Shown one piece after another: positions 57,346 through 64,000 of a stretch of 64,000 bases of DNA. The position numbers were made by a program, and so were the translations under genes. The DNA comes from Marinobacter sediminum (lineage in GTDB: Bacteria; Pseudomonadota; Gammaproteobacteria; Pseudomonadales; Oleiphilaceae). Within the stretch, counting starts at the first letter, position 1. Every line of letters begins with the position of its first letter. Location of the stretch: positions 744,001 to 808,000 of the forward strand of contig NZ_JAEMQH010000001.1 in assembly GCF_016820575.1 (NCBI RefSeq). Reading direction: 5' to 3'. The notes below the pieces were generated by a model. The model did not search any database and was not told the DNA's origin. It saw only the letters and a program-made list of their open reading frames with translations.

Positions 57346-57529
57346 CACATGTGGTATCGGTATTAAAGTGATCCGTAGTCTGCGCTCACGATAAGGCACC
57401 AGGCCAGCCGCGGCTATGGCAGATCCGTCCAACCGCGCGGGCAAGGTGGTCACTTTCGGCCACTGCCCAAGTGGGTCTCTGGTTGCTATCATTGCCAGCC
57501 ATTCAGACAACAATCACCACAGGAATCGC

Positions 57530-58429
57530 ATGCTCAGCTTCCTACCCGCTCCCGTTATCGGCGTTATCAATTCCATCCTGCTCGGCATTAACACCTTGTT
57601 CTGGTGCATCCTGCTCTATATTCCGGCCGTGTTGAAGCTGGTGGTTCCGCACAAGGGCTTCCGGGTGTTGTGCACCAAGTTGATTATTGCCATTGCTGAG
57701 GCCTGGGTCGCCTGCAATGGCGCCTGGATGAAGCTGACCCACGCCACCCGCTGGGATGTCAAAGGTGCCGCAGAGCTGGAGCGGGAAAGCTGGTACCTGG
57801 TGCTCAGTAATCATCAGAGCTGGGTGGATATTTTGGCGATGCAGCGGGTGTTCAATCGCCGGGCGCCGTTCCTGAAGTTTTTTCTGAAGCAGCAGTTGAT
57901 CTGGGTGCCGGTGATTGGCCTGGCCTGGTGGGGGCTGGATTTCCCGTTCATGAAGCGCTACACCCGGGAATACTTGATCAAGCATCCTGAGAAACGCGGT
58001 GAGGATCTGAAGGCGACCCGCATTGCCTGTGAGAAGTTCCAGCATACGCCGGTCAGCGTGATGAACTTTGTCGAGGGCACTCGCTTTACCCAGGCCAAGC
58101 ACGACAAGCAGAAATCATCTTATCAGCACCTGCTGGTGCCGAAGGCCGGTGGTGTGGCGTTCGTGCTGGATGCCATGGGGGATTCGATTGAGACCCTGGT
58201 GGATGTGACCATCGCCTATCCGGATGGCGCGCCCACGTTCTGGGATTTCATCTGTGGACGGGTGAAGGACATCCGGATGGAGATCCACACGGTCGCTATT
58301 CCCAGTCACCTCAAGGGCCGGGATTATTCAGCGGACGCGGAGCATCGAAGAAACGTCAAGGATTGGCTGGCGGAACAGTGGCAACAGAAAGATGCGCGGC
58401 TGGCTGAAATGCTCAGCCGCGGTGAGTAA
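57530..58429 (+). CDS. yihG: YihG-like 1-acyl-sn-glycerol-3-phosphate acyltransferase family protein
   Basis: A 299-residue membrane acyltransferase of the LPLAT family. N-terminal hydrophobic segments precede the catalytic NHQSWVDILAMQ (HX4D), FLKQQLIWVPVIGLAWWGLD and FVEGTRFTQAKHDKQ. These match E. coli YihG closely as recalled. It is likely to acylate lysophosphatidic acid. The start at 57530 follows AGGA; the earlier open codons were excluded. Confidence 0.9.
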   Translation: MLSFLPAPVIGVINSILLGINTLFWCILLYIPAVLKLVVPHKGFRVLCTKLIIAIAEAWVACNGAWMKLTHATRWDVKGAAELERESWYLVLSNHQSWVDILAMQRVFNRRAPFLKFFLKQQLIWVPVIGLAWWGLDFPFMKRYTREYLIKHPEKRGEDLKATRIACEKFQHTPVSVMNFVEGTRFTQAKHDKQKSSYQHLLVPKAGGVAFVLDAMGDSIETLVDVTIAYPDGAPTFWDFICGRVKDIRMEIHTVAIPSHLKGRDYSADAEHRRNVKDWLAEQWQQKDARLAEMLSRGE

Positions 58430-58434
58430 CGAGT

Positions 58435-59253
58435 CTAACGGCCTAGTTTTGCCAAGGTTTGCAGGGCGAGTTCCTGTCCGATTTCATTCAGAGTGAAGGT
58501 CTGCTCGATCCGCTGAAAGCCTTTGCTTGTGGCCTTCCATTGGCGTGTCTGGTCTTGTTCAGGCGGCACTCCATTGGAACTCAGCATCGCGCGAATGTTG
58601 CCGTTTTGAACGTCGATGACCTCCACTTCGAAGCTGTCGCGGGCCAACTTGCGGATCACCAGTAACATGTCGGCGTGCTCACCCAATGCGCGCATTTCCA
58701 GTCGGCGCTGGTCAGGTGACAGTCGCGAAAAGTCCCCATTTTCCAGCGTATTGTCGGTAATGCGCATGATGGCATCACGGGCTACTACACTGACACCAGC
58801 CTCAGTCAACTGGCTTACCAGTCCGCTTTGAAGTTGAAACGCGGGCTCTGCCGGTCCCGATCGTCGATTCGGGCGATACTCGGCCTGAGCCGCCATTTGT
58901 CCATGCCCCTGAAGATCTACGTTGCCGTCGGGCACCTCTCCGTTCAGTGAGCCGCGCGTTGAAACCACGCCACGGGCGTTGCTGCTCCAGTCACTGACTT
59001 GGTCATCGAAGGCTCTGTTCCAGAATACAGCGACTCTGGGTGTCTCGTTGCCATAGGCAGCACGGAAGCGTTTGATGATGACCTCGGCGCTTTCACTGCG
59101 CTGCGGTGCAGAACGATCGTTTGTCAGGTCGTTGTCGGTCAGTGATTTCTGGGCGGGCGCCATCATCGGGGCCGCCTCATGGCTTTGGCTGGCGGTCAGG
59201 CTGTAGCCAGACGCCAGCAGGGGCATGCAGAGCATCCAGGCCAGTCGTCTCAT
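58435..59253 (-). CDS. Periplasmic protein of unknown function, last gene of the LpoB operon
   Basis: A 272-residue protein with a signal peptide (MRRLAWMLCMPLLASGYSL) but no lipobox. The mature part has a Ser-rich region, then RVAVFWNRAFDDQVSDW, LVSQLTEAGVSVVARDAIMR and a beta-rich end. The two-part layout and the RVAVFWN strand recall CsgG/FlgT-like periplasmic folds, but I could not assign a family. Its ATG overlaps the YcfL stop codon (TAATG). Confidence 0.6.
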   Translation of the reverse strand: MRRLAWMLCMPLLASGYSLTASQSHEAAPMMAPAQKSLTDNDLTNDRSAPQRSESAEVIIKRFRAAYGNETPRVAVFWNRAFDDQVSDWSSNARGVVSTRGSLNGEVPDGNVDLQGHGQMAAQAEYRPNRRSGPAEPAFQLQSGLVSQLTEAGVSVVARDAIMRITDNTLENGDFSRLSPDQRRLEMRALGEHADMLLVIRKLARDSFEVEVIDVQNGNIRAMLSSNGVPPEQDQTRQWKATSKGFQRIEQTFTLNEIGQELALQTLAKLGR

Positions 59254-59708
59254 TAGTTCAGCTCCCGGACTTCCACGCGGTACTGCAGGGGCTGGGTGGT
59301 GGCAGATAACTCGCGGTAAGTGGAGAGGCTGTTGGCAGGCACCGTCGTGCGTTGCCAGGTCGGCCTGACGTCAGTTGGCACACCATCCTGATCGAAGAAC
59401 TGGGTGCGGGCTTCAATTTGGTAATCGTAGTCGGTGTGGTTACGTAGCACCGCGTATACCTCGGTGGTGCCCGTTGCGCTTGGGCGCTGGCCGTGTTGAA
59501 CGACCGACAGCCGGTAGCGTTCGCCCTCACTGAAGAAACCGCCGGTCCACGTGCGCTTCAAGTTGTAATCGGTAAAGACCACGGAATTCATGGTGACTGG
59601 TGCTGTCCGCTCGGTCAGTTCGGTGCTATCCGCCGATTTATAGGCACAGCCGGTTGTCACGCTGAGGCCGATGGCAGCAACGGCCAGGAATTTCATCAGA
59701 TGGATCAT
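59253..59708 (-). CDS. ycfL: YcfL-like (DUF1425) lipoprotein
   Basis: A 151-residue lipoprotein with lipobox TTGC (Cys21). The mature part is a single beta-sandwich domain with VVFTDYNLKRTW, TTEVYAVLRNHTDYDYQIEA and RTQFFDQDGVPTD, as in E. coli YcfL, which is encoded next to LpoB. AGGAG precedes ATG 59708, which overlaps the COG3014 stop by 4 bp. Confidence 0.85.
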   Translation of the reverse strand: MIHLMKFLAVAAIGLSVTTGCAYKSADSTELTERTAPVTMNSVVFTDYNLKRTWTGGFFSEGERYRLSVVQHGQRPSATGTTEVYAVLRNHTDYDYQIEARTQFFDQDGVPTDVRPTWQRTTVPANSLSTYRELSATTQPLQYRVEVRELN

Positions 59709-60955
59709 TGGTTTGCTCCTGAATGTGGACGACGTGAGGTGGCAAAGGCCAAGCCAGCACCGCGGCCATCAAATTTAAACTCGGTACTATCGGTGAGTCC
59801 GGGGATTGGCTGACCGTACTCGTCGATGAACCGGACAGTTACCGGCTCCCCATCGGCGGCCGTCACCGGCATCAGGTGGATGGTGTCGGGCAGGCCTTCC
59901 CAGTAGCGGACGTCGGCGCGCGTATTAGCGGAGGCGGACATTCCGTCTGCGGCCACACTGATAAGGCTAATAGCCGCAAAGCCCGCACCGACAGCACCAC
60001 CCGCTGCGGCACTGAAACCGGCCAGCGTGCTGTCCTGGCTGACTGTGCTCAGGGTTGAACCGATCGCTCTGGTGTTCTCTTTGAATTGGATTTGGCCTTC
60101 CACGATTCGATCGATGGCTCGGCCGCCCCGAGTCGAGGCTTGAAAGAAAATGTCTTCCACCGGATAGACCGGGGACCACTCTTCGCCATTTCGCATCTCT
60201 GCGGCGATATCCTTGAAATTTTTGCCGCGGCGGTATACCAGCTGGTGGTGACCGACACCATCACCGAGCTTGCGTGGAGATTTTCCGGTTTCGATGATCA
60301 GCAGGGCGTTGTCATCGAGGTCCGGAATCGGCGCGTCCGGTCGGTACAGCTTCAGCTCTGCGAAGTGATCTCTGGCAAGCTGATCACTGCCCATCTGCAT
60401 GGCGGACCAGCCAGCCAGGTACAACAATAGCGCAAAATCGGTGCTGTTCTGTTGCTCCTCGGCAAAGGCGTCCTGAAGGAGGCCAGCCAGGAAGCTGGCT
60501 CGGGCGTTGCCGTAGTCACCTTCTTCCAGGTAGATGAGGCCAAGGTACATGTAGACCATGGCACGTTCGTAGGGTTCACCCTTGAAGTCTTTTTCTGCCT
60601 CTTCGTACCAGATACTGCGGGCTTTCCGCGCAGAGTCGGTGTCGGCGTAGACGTTTTCGATTTCCAGCCGCGCCTGGGACAGCGTGTTCTTGGCCTCGTC
60701 CCGATAGCCGGCGCGATAGGCTTTGACCCCGATTTCCATCAGGTTCAGCACCTTGTTGCGCTGGCCTTCTTCGAACAGATTCTGGAAATCCGCCTGCAGT
60801 ACCGCAGGCTTGCTATCCACTAGCGATTGCTCGGACGGTGCCAGAGTTGACCGGTCATGGACTTTCGGTCCATTGGCACATCCGACCATTGTGCTGGCAA
60901 GTGCGGTTGCCAGCACAGGTTTCAGCCATGTCTTATCGATAGACCACATTGTCAC
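59705..60955 (-). CDS. COG3014-family lipoprotein
   Basis: A 416-residue lipoprotein with lipobox MVGC (Cys26). An alpha-helical TPR-like region (GVKAYRAGYRDEAKNTLSQA and MYLGLIYLEEGDYGNARASF) is followed by a Gly-rich hydrophobic segment (AAAGGAVGAGFAAISLISVA) that may enter or lie on a membrane. COG3014 is often next to lpoB and ycfL in gammaproteobacteria. It overlaps the lpoB end by 23 bp. GTG 60955 fits the Shine-Dalgarno better than ATG 60949. Confidence 0.82.
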   Translation of the reverse strand: MTMWSIDKTWLKPVLATALASTMVGCANGPKVHDRSTLAPSEQSLVDSKPAVLQADFQNLFEEGQRNKVLNLMEIGVKAYRAGYRDEAKNTLSQARLEIENVYADTDSARKARSIWYEEAEKDFKGEPYERAMVYMYLGLIYLEEGDYGNARASFLAGLLQDAFAEEQQNSTDFALLLYLAGWSAMQMGSDQLARDHFAELKLYRPDAPIPDLDDNALLIIETGKSPRKLGDGVGHHQLVYRRGKNFKDIAAEMRNGEEWSPVYPVEDIFFQASTRGGRAIDRIVEGQIQFKENTRAIGSTLSTVSQDSTLAGFSAAAGGAVGAGFAAISLISVAADGMSASANTRADVRYWEGLPDTIHLMPVTAADGEPVTVRFIDEYGQPIPGLTDSTEFKFDGRGAGLAFATSRRPHSGANQ

Positions 60956-61574
60956 GGGCCGCCTTCCTCATCTCGTAGAGTCCACTCCACACAATGGTGC
61001 CCAGTTCCAGATCGACCATTTCAAAAGTGACTTGGCTGTAACGGGATTGGGTGCCGGTATTGCGGTCGATCGCATCCAGAGAGGAAATGCGGCCACCAAG
61101 GCGGAAGTCGGCGCCGGCTTGTGCGGCGGTCTGACGAATTGTTCCGCCATCGACCGCACCATCGCGTTTCAGGTCACGCTCTTTCTGGACCATATCCGAG
61201 AAATGGCGACCGACGAAGACCATGCGCCCGTTGGCGGCACGATTAAGTTCGATACGCAGGCGGTCGGTGAGCATGTTGGTGTTGATGACCGATGTGCTTT
61301 CGTTCTTGAGGTATTCGTTATCGATGATAATGCGTGGCGGTGTTGAGCGTCCGGTAAGCATCGGATTGGCCAGCATGTCGCGCATCATCTTGTCGGTCAT
61401 GGCCACCACGTCCTGGCTCTCAATGCCCACCCCGCCGACGCTTCCTGTGGTGGACACATCCTCGTAAACGCTGGGTTTACCCCGTACGTTTTCGATATTA
61501 CTGGCGCAGCCGGATAAAATCAGGGTTGCCGTTGTCAGGACGCAGGCCGTTGTCAGTGCAGTTTTCCTAAGCAT
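60933..61574 (-). CDS. lpoB: Penicillin-binding protein activator LpoB
   Basis: A 213-residue outer-membrane lipoprotein with lipobox LSGC (Cys23). In E. coli LpoB reaches across the periplasm to activate the synthase PBP1b. Conserved strands are TDKMMRDMLANPML, RIIIDNEYLKNESTSVINTN and RLGGRISSLDAI. The start at 61574 follows GGAG; 61586 is an alternative. It is the second gene of a five-gene operon. Confidence 0.9.
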   Translation of the reverse strand: MLRKTALTTACVLTTATLILSGCASNIENVRGKPSVYEDVSTTGSVGGVGIESQDVVAMTDKMMRDMLANPMLTGRSTPPRIIIDNEYLKNESTSVINTNMLTDRLRIELNRAANGRMVFVGRHFSDMVQKERDLKRDGAVDGGTIRQTAAQAGADFRLGGRISSLDAIDRNTGTQSRYSQVTFEMVDLELGTIVWSGLYEMRKAARDNVVYR

Positions 61575-61592
61575 TCCAGTCTCCATTTGATG

Positions 61593-63143
61593 TTATCGGA
61601 CTTGCGCGAGCGATTCGGCCAGTTCGGGGTAGATCTGTCGGGTGGCATTCATGGCGTCGGCAAAATTGCCGGTATGGCCGTATTTGGCCTTTAGGTAGCG
61701 AGCCATGGAGGGTAGATCGTCAAAGCTGCGATCGGAGGAAGCGCGAATCGCTTCCCAGCCGCCGGAAGCGCTAATAGCGGTTTCCCGGCCAACACTCTTG
61801 CCGATTTCTGCGCCAACGGCCCCGCCCAGAAAGCTTCCTACAAAAGGTACTTGTTCAAGTGCTTTCTCACCCAGATAGGCGCCTGCTGCGGCACCGACGC
61901 CGGTGCCTAGAGTCGAGCCGATGTTGGCGTTGATGGCGGAGTTGACCCACTCGGCCAGAACATCGTCGCTGGTGTAGGGGCTCAGGTATTGGCCCTGATT
62001 GTCCTTGCGCACCAATTGTTCGAGGAGCTCTTCCCGGGTTGGAATCCGAATGTTGCCATTGGCATCCCGGAGCTTGCCGGTTTTTGCGGCGGCCAACAGC
62101 TGTGCTGAGGGAGCCTCATTGGTCATGCGATCTACCAACCCTTCGGGCAGCCCCGATGCTTTTAAAACGTCTCGATGGGATTGACTCATACCCGTGTAAT
62201 AGCCTGACACGACTTCCTTGGCCAGCTCACCTCCATGAGAGACATACGCTATCTGCCCGCTAGCTTCGTCAGGATAGGCGTTCAGCATGCGGAGCAGCAG
62301 TTGGTCTTCCTTGGTACCCTGTTCCAGCTCGGCCTGAAGGTCCAGGCCGCTGAGTCCTTTTGGGCCGATCAGCCAAGCCTGGTACTGATCCGGTAGCAGG
62401 TTGACGTATCCGGGTACGTCACGGTTGGTGGCATGATAGGCCAGAACGTCTGTTTCCGGGGCCAACTCGATCAGTCGAATTACTGAAGAGGGTCGGTAAA
62501 CGGAGTTGCGGCCGGGGCCGGCAAGGTAGGCGGAAATCTCGTCGGCAGTTTGGGGGTTGATGCGTTCAAAGTCCGAGCGTTGCTGGTCGATCGCGGCTAA
62601 AACGTTGTCCCTGTGATGATCAGTGACGTAGGCTTTTGCCGCGGCTATTTCTTCCGATTCGTCGGTCAGCGATCCCATAAACATCATGGGTGTCGGGAAA
62701 TAAACGGAGAAGTAGCCCTTGATGGAATAATCAACACGGCTCTCAAGCAGTGTGTAACCCTGCCAGGTCAGTGCGTAGACGTCTGCGTACTGTGACTCCT
62801 CCTGAAACGGGATCAGAGTCAGTGTGAGCATATAGCCGAGAAAGCTCGCACCACTGAAATCTGGTCCTCCAGTCTTTTCGGTCGTACGCGTTGCAACAAC
62901 CGTGGGGGCATCGACGGATCCCGGAATCAACCAATCAGGACGTTCGTCTCCGACAATGGTAAAGGGCACGGTCCCGGAGTCATAGGAGGAGTGGGCGGGC
63001 GCTCTGACACTGGTTTGATCGAATTGATATACCTGGCATCCGGCCAGCAAAGTAGCCATGGTAAGGCTAGCTAGCGCTCTTCCCACTCGCGAAGCTGAAG
63101 CGTGCTTTTTTCCGGTGGCGCCTCGAAAACGACTGAACTTCAT
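61593..63143 (-). CDS. Large lipoprotein of unknown function with a glycine-zipper segment
   Basis: A 516-residue lipoprotein, first gene of the LpoB operon. Lipobox LLAGC (Cys36) follows a basic N-terminus. The first half has extended beta segments (TIVGDERPDWLIPGS) and a hydrophobic stretch, FLGYMLTLTLIPF. The second half has a glycine-zipper stretch, TLGTGVGAAAGAYLGEK and FVGSFLGGAVGAEIGKSVG, and a helical end. The family is not recognised. It ends 18 bp before the LpoB start chosen here, so its job is probably in the same envelope function. Confidence 0.75.
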   Translation of the reverse strand: MKFSRFRGATGKKHASASRVGRALASLTMATLLAGCQVYQFDQTSVRAPAHSSYDSGTVPFTIVGDERPDWLIPGSVDAPTVVATRTTEKTGGPDFSGASFLGYMLTLTLIPFQEESQYADVYALTWQGYTLLESRVDYSIKGYFSVYFPTPMMFMGSLTDESEEIAAAKAYVTDHHRDNVLAAIDQQRSDFERINPQTADEISAYLAGPGRNSVYRPSSVIRLIELAPETDVLAYHATNRDVPGYVNLLPDQYQAWLIGPKGLSGLDLQAELEQGTKEDQLLLRMLNAYPDEASGQIAYVSHGGELAKEVVSGYYTGMSQSHRDVLKASGLPEGLVDRMTNEAPSAQLLAAAKTGKLRDANGNIRIPTREELLEQLVRKDNQGQYLSPYTSDDVLAEWVNSAINANIGSTLGTGVGAAAGAYLGEKALEQVPFVGSFLGGAVGAEIGKSVGRETAISASGGWEAIRASSDRSFDDLPSMARYLKAKYGHTGNFADAMNATRQIYPELAESLAQVR

Positions 63144-63427
63144 TTTGATACCCAAATTCCATTGGTTACTATCAGCCCGGGGCAGCGACACTCCGGAATT
63201 CGGGTATATGTATAAACGATTTTTAATGAGGTCGTCTTGCCTCAGACGTTTCGAGACGAGGCAGTTTAGTCAATTACTCAAGAATTGGGCGCGCAGCGCC
63301 TCGGTAGGTGTTTGAAAGTAAGCGCCTATTGTGAGTAAGACAAAGAACTTTCCGGAATTGCAAAACAATGCAAAATGATATTTTTAATGCATGAATCGCC
63401 GTGTCGTGTGCGGTGGCTGTTGCTATA

Positions 63428-63631
63428 TCAGCGTTCGTCATCCTCCTCCACTTCGTCCGGGTGTTCGCGCTTGTAGCGCTCCCATTCTTCCCAGTCATGA
63501 GGCGTACCTGCATGGGGCCGGCGCAGGTGTTTGGCGTGTTCCATGGCGTTGTGCTGCAAGCTGTGGTCCCGCTCCTCTTCTTCCTTGTCGAAACCGTATT
63601 TTTTCAGAAACTCATCGGGCTTGATGGGCAT
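63428..63631 (-). CDS. Small acidic protein of unknown function
   Basis: A 67-residue charged protein without signal or membrane segment. It is rich in Glu, Asp, His and Arg (DKEEEERDHSLQHN and DWEEWERYKREHPDE) and begins MPIKPDEFLKKYGFDKEE. Its gene lies 60 bp after the RNase R-like gene on the same strand. The 284 bp downstream of it, before the lipoprotein operon, hold no gene. Confidence 0.6.
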   Translation of the reverse strand: MPIKPDEFLKKYGFDKEEEERDHSLQHNAMEHAKHLRRPHAGTPHDWEEWERYKREHPDEVEEDDER

Positions 63632-63691: not shown

Positions 63692-64000
63692 TCAACCTTT
63701 GTTGGTGTTGCTGTCGCTCTGGATTTCCTCGGCCTCCACCAGTGTGAAATTGATCTGACGACGCTCCTCGTCAACATTGGCGAAGGTGACCTTCACTGGC
63801 TGTTCCAGCTGGAAGATGCGGCCGTTCTTGTTGTGGATCAGGCGCAGGGTGACGGGATCAAAGCCGTATTTTCCGTCCAGATCCTTGCAGCTTACGAAGC
63901 CTTCCAGGCCGTTGGCGTCGAGCCGGACGAAGAATCCGGCCGGAACGGTACGGCTGATGACTCCGGTCATGGGCGCATCGCCCAGGGTCCGAGCAAAGTC
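63692..64000 (-). CDS. RNase R-like ribonuclease, C-terminal fragment (rest beyond window)
   Basis: The last 102 residues of a protein whose start is beyond the right edge. An S1 RNA-binding domain is visible, MTGVISRTVPAGFFVRLDAN with GLEGFVSCKDLD, then YGFDPVTLRLIH, VKVTFANVDEERRQINFTLV and an acidic tail. The S1 domain followed by ERRQINF is typical of the end of RNase R/II-family exoribonucleases. The catalytic RNB domain is not in view. Confidence 0.7.
   Translation of the reverse strand, partial: DFARTLGDAPMTGVISRTVPAGFFVRLDANGLEGFVSCKDLDGKYGFDPVTLRLIHNKNGRIFQLEQPVKVTFANVDEERRQINFTLVEAEEIQSDSNTNKG

Follow-up and report, generated by a model that had tools for sequence, protein, structure and literature searches.

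A horizontally exchanged accessory operon of Marinobacter sediminum encoding a divergent LpoB-family lipoprotein and a glycine-zipper protein

The window analysed here, a 64,000-nucleotide stretch of Marinobacter sediminum (assembly GCF_016820575.1, contig NZ_JAEMQH010000001.1, positions 744,001 to 808,000), carries near its end a five-gene operon coding for a large glycine-zipper (GZ) protein (g1), a divergent LpoB-family lipoprotein (LpoB*), a tetratricopeptide repeat (TPR) lipoprotein, a YcfL-like lipoprotein (YcfL*) and a protein with a signal-peptide-like N-terminus (g5). This five-gene set is an accessory cassette rather than the usual lpoB locus of the genus, and it moves as one cassette, being scattered among distant bacteria and present on plasmids. 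We give an even chance to the reading that this horizontally exchanged envelope cassette encodes an outer-membrane lipoprotein complex with a swappable GZ docking subunit, and not an activator of PBP1b.

The initial annotation described five closely packed genes, which our analysis confirms. The open reading frames (ORFs) of g1 (516 aa, 61593..63143, with an alternative upstream GTG start at 63191), LpoB* (217 aa, 60933..61586), the TPR lipoprotein (416 aa, 59705..60955), YcfL* (151 aa, 59253..59708) and g5 (272 aa, 58435..59253) all lie on the minus strand. A gap of 6 nt separates g1 from LpoB*, and the next three junctions have overlaps of 23, 4 and 1 nt. Lipobox-like motifs are borne by the first four products (LAGC, LSGC, MVGC and TTGC, the latter a weaker fit), and g5 bears only its signal-peptide-like N-terminus, without such a motif. 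A promoter scan of the operon returned two sites, both on the opposite strand, versus 2.5 expected, hence nothing above background. LpoB* was rightly assigned to the LpoB family, its PF13036 match (90.3 bits) exceeding the gathering cut-off of 22.3 bits. The first and last products, said to belong to no recognized family, indeed fitted none here: the unnamed N-terminal module of g1 is followed by a C-terminal GZ domain with sub-threshold glycine-zipper matches only, and g5 matched no Pfam or NCBIfam family. The GZ domain, a putative docking domain, and g5 stand as two protein families without a model in the libraries searched.

We scanned named genomes for LpoB*, which yielded 101 relatives, and kept the best 80 loci, the closest of which are from Marinobacter. 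Their hosts include Marinobacter, Alcanivorax, Alloalcanivorax, Aquisalimonas, Alteromonas, Idiomarina, Pseudidiomarina, Pseudomonas, Halopseudomonas and Aliikangiella; Magnetospirillum and other Alphaproteobacteria, one Desulfococcaceae strain, and contigs of metagenome-assembled genomes (MAGs) labelled Burkholderiaceae, Nitrospinaceae and WOR-3, among others, are also represented. The TPR gene was found in 79 of the 80 loci, YcfL* in 77, g5 in 76 and the GZ domain in 51 (63 ORFs). The YcfL* count comes from a one-pass search, used in place of an iterative one that had strayed into overlapping frames (165 ORFs). The complete four-gene core is present in 75 loci, in the order LpoB*-TPR-YcfL-g5 in 67 and permuted in eight, and two of the five incomplete loci (L126 and L153) run off their contig. 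The arrangement seen in the window, with a GZ gene directly before the core, occurs in 33 loci. That the genes form a co-inherited unit is thus borne out by this conservation of gene order, which is far from chance. Outside the core, no partner common to all lineages was found, neighbours being shared only within groups: L104 and ten loci of Idiomarina type, 11 in all, have a downstream homologue in common, and in 17 loci of Marinobacter and Magnetospirillum type the operon has signalling genes with shared domains nearby. Aquisalimonas lutea (L097, L101) and Terasakiella sp. PR1 (L141, L152) each have two LpoB* loci, on separate contigs. A class-wide search of 274 genomes with the TPR protein gave matches in 15; apart from those in the window genome and G095, the other 13 did not exceed a significance of E 3.7e-9. 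The family alignments used below comprise, each with the window sequence added, 35 of 47 representatives for g5, 29 of 32 for LpoB*, 33 of 43 for TPR, 29 of 43 for YcfL, 34 of 39 for GZ proteins and 27 of 31 for GZ domains, over-extended or redundant frames having been left out.

Within Marinobacter the operon is sparsely distributed. Both g1 and g5 are present in 2 of 58 relatives, window genome included, and LpoB* is found at an identity of at least 75% in 19 of 124 genus genomes. Matches at 21-27% identity to LpoB* occur in 20 of the 124, a lower bound since PF13036 matches in G004, G008, G022, G026 and G030 are uncounted, and only one genome is common to both sets; we read these distant matches as the canonical LpoB of the genus. 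The canonical lpoB has a COG3014-like neighbour and no g1 or g5 nearby. Absence of the flanking genes beside lpoB in close relatives, which the initial annotation had named as evidence against its proposal, is therefore seen for canonical lpoB and not for LpoB* itself.

On one side of the chromosomal operon lies a gene for a YihG-type acyltransferase (57515..58429, plus strand, convergent with g5; NF058536, 432 bits), and on the other p67, a gene for a conserved 67-aa protein (63428..63631, minus strand), followed by the 3' part of a 661-aa gene, rnb (63692..64000, minus strand), whose product we take to be exoribonuclease II-like. A YihG-family match was found in 60 of 61 genus genomes, and 30 of these 60 were examined: the site is empty in 25, where rnb adjoins with no operon between, and occupied in five including the window. 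All 19 chromosomal LpoB* copies lie between rnb and yihG (14 seen directly, five via named loci matched by contig coordinates). Where G028, a relative whose rnb protein is 99% identical, has 65 bp, the window has 5052 bp (58383..63434) bounded by the end of p67 and the last 47 bp of yihG. The p67 gene may lie on either side of the operon, depending on the genome, and was not found in some genomes. A Marinobacter-type operon with rnb and yihG flanks was also found on a contig labelled as a Rhodopirellula MAG (L084, MED697), probably a mis-binned Marinobacter contig.

Exchange of the cassette is apparent from a comparison of operon and flank trees built on 18 carriers. Operon proteins fall into types I and II, with a mean distance of 0.288 between types and 0.13-0.14 within them, whereas the flanking proteins of type I and type II carriers are separated by 0.167, compared with 0.13-0.16 within. 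The two trees conflict: L079 and L168 carry a type I operon, yet their flanks group with those of type II carriers L089, L067 and L018, with a support of 1.0 in both trees. The operon is also carried by plasmids. A second copy resides on plasmid pHP-187 of Marinobacter adhaerens HP15, exhibiting 98.6-98.8% identity over 4.5 kb with the chromosomal copy of G386. Plasmid pSZ.B2R2_2 of Sphingomonas hankookensis, a host from another class than Marinobacter, bears a four-gene form composed of LpoB* (41.5% identity over 75% of the query), TPR, YcfL and g5, without any GZ match in the 16.5-kb stretch searched. The third record matched, from Aeromonas caviae (28% identity), is chromosome-sized. Shortly downstream of the pHP-187 copy lies a tad/Flp pilus cluster (L209 3115-9388; cpaB, CpaF family, type II secretion system F family).

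The modular component of the cassette is g1. Its GZ domain corresponds to the C-terminal 147 residues (61596..62036, minus strand) and displays twelve invariant positions in 28 aligned sequences, with the signature P-[YFW]-T-x-D ... GG ... SD-x-SF ... YP. This domain is fused to PDZ domains (up to 8 of 35 proteins), to ankyrin repeats (2 of 35), to the long Marinobacter module or to other unnamed modules, while minimal GZ proteins of about 175 aa contain little beyond a lipoprotein signal. GZ ORFs are located before lpoB* (36 of 63) or after it (27 of 63), and 11 loci have two or three of them. No described family fitted the domain in Pfam, where weak matches to Gly-zipper_Omp (10 of 35 GZ proteins) and Rick_17kDa (6 of 35) were obtained, and a PDB sequence search returned nothing relevant. 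Genome-wide, the GZ domain was detected in 24 of 33 carrier genomes and in none of four non-carriers; it is encoded at the locus, and two genomes have additional copies elsewhere. These off-locus genes, some of them broken, belong to two Alcanivorax-type genomes (G373 C3:377998-379373 and G360 C9:8874-9304).

How could such a cassette function? A joint envelope complex is likely, since the five genes are co-inherited and four of their products are lipoprotein-like. LpoB*, the TPR lipoprotein and YcfL* would be anchored in the outer membrane and, as their co-inheritance suggests, would form with periplasmic g5 a core complex onto which g1 would dock. As a helical hairpin, the GZ domain would probably insert into the outer membrane and oligomerise there in the manner of SlyB, leaving the N-terminal module, which differs between lineages, to face a client or load. 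Such an assembly would be likely to reinforce or organise the outer membrane locally rather than to activate PBP1b. SlyB is a lipoprotein of the glycine-zipper type, which the GZ domain weakly resembles. Described as an outer-membrane lipoprotein forming transmembrane rings (PMC13067283), it differs from the GZ proteins studied here, in which variable modules are joined to the domain and a core operon accompanies it.

Several observations weigh against this reading. The link to SlyB is an analogy, and the complex, its membrane insertion and its stabilising role are inferred. Nine of the 33 carrier genomes, all alphaproteobacterial by name, have no GZ domain, and 29 of the 80 loci lack a GZ protein. 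Window g1 falls below the Pfam cut-offs for Rick_17kDa_Anti (15.7 vs 25 bits) and Gly-zipper_Omp (13.3 vs 24.2 bits). AlphaFold models of g5 and g1 were built on shallow alignments (of 7 or 9 rows); that of g1 is weak (mean pLDDT, the predicted local distance difference test, of 64.5), and neither model had a Foldseek match at E <0.001. Part of the conflict between operon and flank trees could stem from differential loss of two old types. Finally, one Marinobacter locus that is not among the 19, L091 (BGYM27), holds the operon with no rnb or yihG within its 18.6-kb stretch, so that occupation of a single site is not universal.

A related proposal, possible although we hold it only tentatively, would make the operon an outer-membrane docking platform: the GZ domain would be a transferable address tag loading PDZ, ankyrin and other periplasmic modules onto a conserved lipoprotein core, the platform would spread among species on plasmids and by cassette exchange, and enterobacterial LpoB would belong to an older lipoprotein set and have been recruited to PBP1b later on. 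The variable modules also invite the idea, in our opinion unlikely, that the core serves for export or surface display, in a manner comparable to CsgG/curli, with the GZ proteins as its cargo. One conserved domain attached to variable modules beside the core, with up to three such proteins per locus, is reminiscent of a sorting signal and its passengers, and RefSeq names one relative a CsgG/HfaB family protein, the tie to CsgG being presumed here. Nevertheless, 59 of 63 GZ ORFs match a lenient lipobox pattern, which suggests anchoring rather than release, 29 of the 80 loci are devoid of a GZ protein, and no pore-forming stretch was identified, although none was searched for beyond the family scans.

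The initial annotation envisaged an envelope complex for peptidoglycan growth, with LpoB* as activator of PBP1b. E. coli LpoB is reported to act by docking on the UB2H domain of PBP1b, and LpoB is called enterobacteria-restricted and co-evolved with UB2H (PMC3060616). That LpoB* and its partners activate PBP1b via UB2H in the same way seems improbable to us, more so than export, even though LpoB* is a PF13036 member homologous to canonical LpoB (hhalign probability 99.4), the window genome encodes a protein with UB2H (70.3 bits) while LpoB* is its only PF13036 match, and TPR lipoproteins regulate class A PBPs elsewhere, as described for LpoP (PMC7267771). LpoB* falls below the cut-off of the TIGR02722 equivalog (80.3 vs 110.55 bits). 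Genome-wide searches for UB2H and PF13036 in 33 carrier genomes (the window genome and those of 33 of the 80 loci, L132 left out) found a full-length UB2H in 21, all Gammaproteobacteria by name and accounting for every gammaproteobacterial carrier tested. The remaining 12 carriers, Alphaproteobacteria by name and one Desulfococcaceae, have LpoB* without a full-length UB2H; six of them contain short UB2H matches over positions 1-49 (that of G383 above the cut-off), which from their frame lengths we take to be UvrB and Mfd, and six contain none. Conversely, 122 of the 124 genus genomes have a full-length UB2H (the other two are 58% and 76% complete), versus 19 for LpoB*. PBP1b, recognised here only by its UB2H, mostly within frames of some 780-850 aa, is thus usually found without LpoB* in the genus. 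A second, canonical LpoB is encoded by five of the 33 carriers. Between the lipid cysteine and the first conserved strand, window LpoB* has 61 residues compared with, as we estimate, roughly 90 in E. coli, though the tether is short in two canonical LpoB proteins as well; for these counts only rows of 56-65 were relied on, values of 3-8 and 122-150 reflecting a misplaced strand. Because UB2H and LpoB* occur uncoupled, PBP1b activation does not appear to be the general role of LpoB*, although it may be a local one in the window genome. The joint envelope complex thus keeps its standing while its interpretation in terms of peptidoglycan is weak. More broadly, an LpoB-family protein with fixed partners, also where UB2H was not found, suggests that an older lipoprotein module may have been put to use for PBP1b activation only secondarily. 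As a compact unit that can be deleted, the operon offers a way to learn in marine bacteria what this module does. Patchy distribution, plasmid carriage, a fast-evolving g1 and tandem paralogues would suit an envelope-based anti-phage, exclusion or interbacterial system on mobile DNA, but this is the least likely of these options, since PADLOC gave no relevant match (one restriction-enzyme match at E 0.012), no phage record matches g1 and no immunity-like partner was seen; a defence or phage origin is thus unsupported.

The preferred reading, an accessory lipoprotein complex, also has to be placed among known relatives of the operon. At canonical-type lpoB loci, many of which were scanned as 3.4-kb stretches only, 15 of 18 show a window-type TPR lipoprotein and 5 show a YcfL-like gene (both at E up to 1e-3), whereas no g5 or GZ match was obtained at the same threshold in 22 loci scanned; in addition, LpoB there is 21-27% identical to LpoB* in the genus, and gene order differs in the loci seen. 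Since TPR and YcfL recur in both while g5 and GZ were not found at the canonical-type loci, the window operon is best described as a divergent sister of the COG3014-YcfL-LpoB set supplemented with two further families. Some canonical-type loci have nearby what we take to be a longer TolB-N-containing protein or an LPP20-like lipoprotein; hhalign relates LpoB* to the TolB-N-like part of the longer protein found beside some canonical lpoB genes with a probability of 95.6. In E. coli, ycfL neighbours lpoB. No paper on the five-gene set turned up in the literature searched, subscription papers being mostly outside its reach. E. coli LpoB is likewise a PF13036 outer-membrane lipoprotein, but it docks on UB2H through a long disordered tether (PMC3060616, PMC6220978), while the LpoB* tether is shorter and LpoB* occurs also where no UB2H was found. 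The nearest studied operon found, by description, is cj0089-cj0090-cj0091 of Campylobacter jejuni, a lipoprotein operon with a TPR-like Cj0089 and an outer-membrane Cj0091 orthologous to HP1457 (PMC3100323), the Helicobacter protein called an LpoB homologue elsewhere (PMC11394524). The Campylobacter operon differs from that of the window in having three genes, a Cj0089 located at the inner membrane and a phenotype of adhesion and colonisation, with adhesion attributed to cj0091 (PMC3100323).

The remaining core proteins are less well characterized. The third protein, named COG3014 in the initial annotation and here regarded as COG3014-like, has only weak TPR matches in Pfam; 32 of 34 aligned family members match TPR_2, and the window family profile resembles TPR lipoproteins located beside canonical lpoB (best E 1e-19). 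Window YcfL* scores 27.3 bits against PF07233 (DUF1425), just under the cut-off of 28.3; 29 of 30 aligned members, window included, match this family at E up to 0.05, and RefSeq names a plasmid copy a YcfL family protein. For g5, a TolB-N-like core is suspected, as a lead only. Its predicted secondary structure (a strand, helices, three strands and a helix) resembles the TolB-N/LpoB core, and its best Foldseek match is TolB (probability 0.87, E 0.029), obtained with a poor model (mean pLDDT 40.4). None of the hhalign comparisons of g5 with LpoB*, canonical LpoB, long TolB-N-containing proteins and FlgO was significant, unrelated controls (TPR and YcfL profiles) scoring about as high; one and the same stretch of g5 is aligned by the long TolB-N-containing proteins and by FlgO. 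PDB sequence searches with the g5, LpoB*, TPR, YcfL and GZ profiles retrieved nothing relevant. Three loci (L158 136-1452, L160 108-1415 and L069 7714-8976) encode near canonical lpoB a protein of 420-440 aa with a TolB-N-like middle domain and a layout resembling that of FlgT.

Two further observations were made. About 120 nt matching the window TPR gene lie in the last 125 bases of contig C6 of G000 (L009 1504-1623); an assembly artefact at the contig end is more probable here than a second copy. Just beyond the window (L019 10569-11621), a 350-aa lipoprotein-like ORF contains many tandem GGEGGE(HH) repeats; near it are genes for a P-type ATPase-like product and for a small DUF411-like protein.

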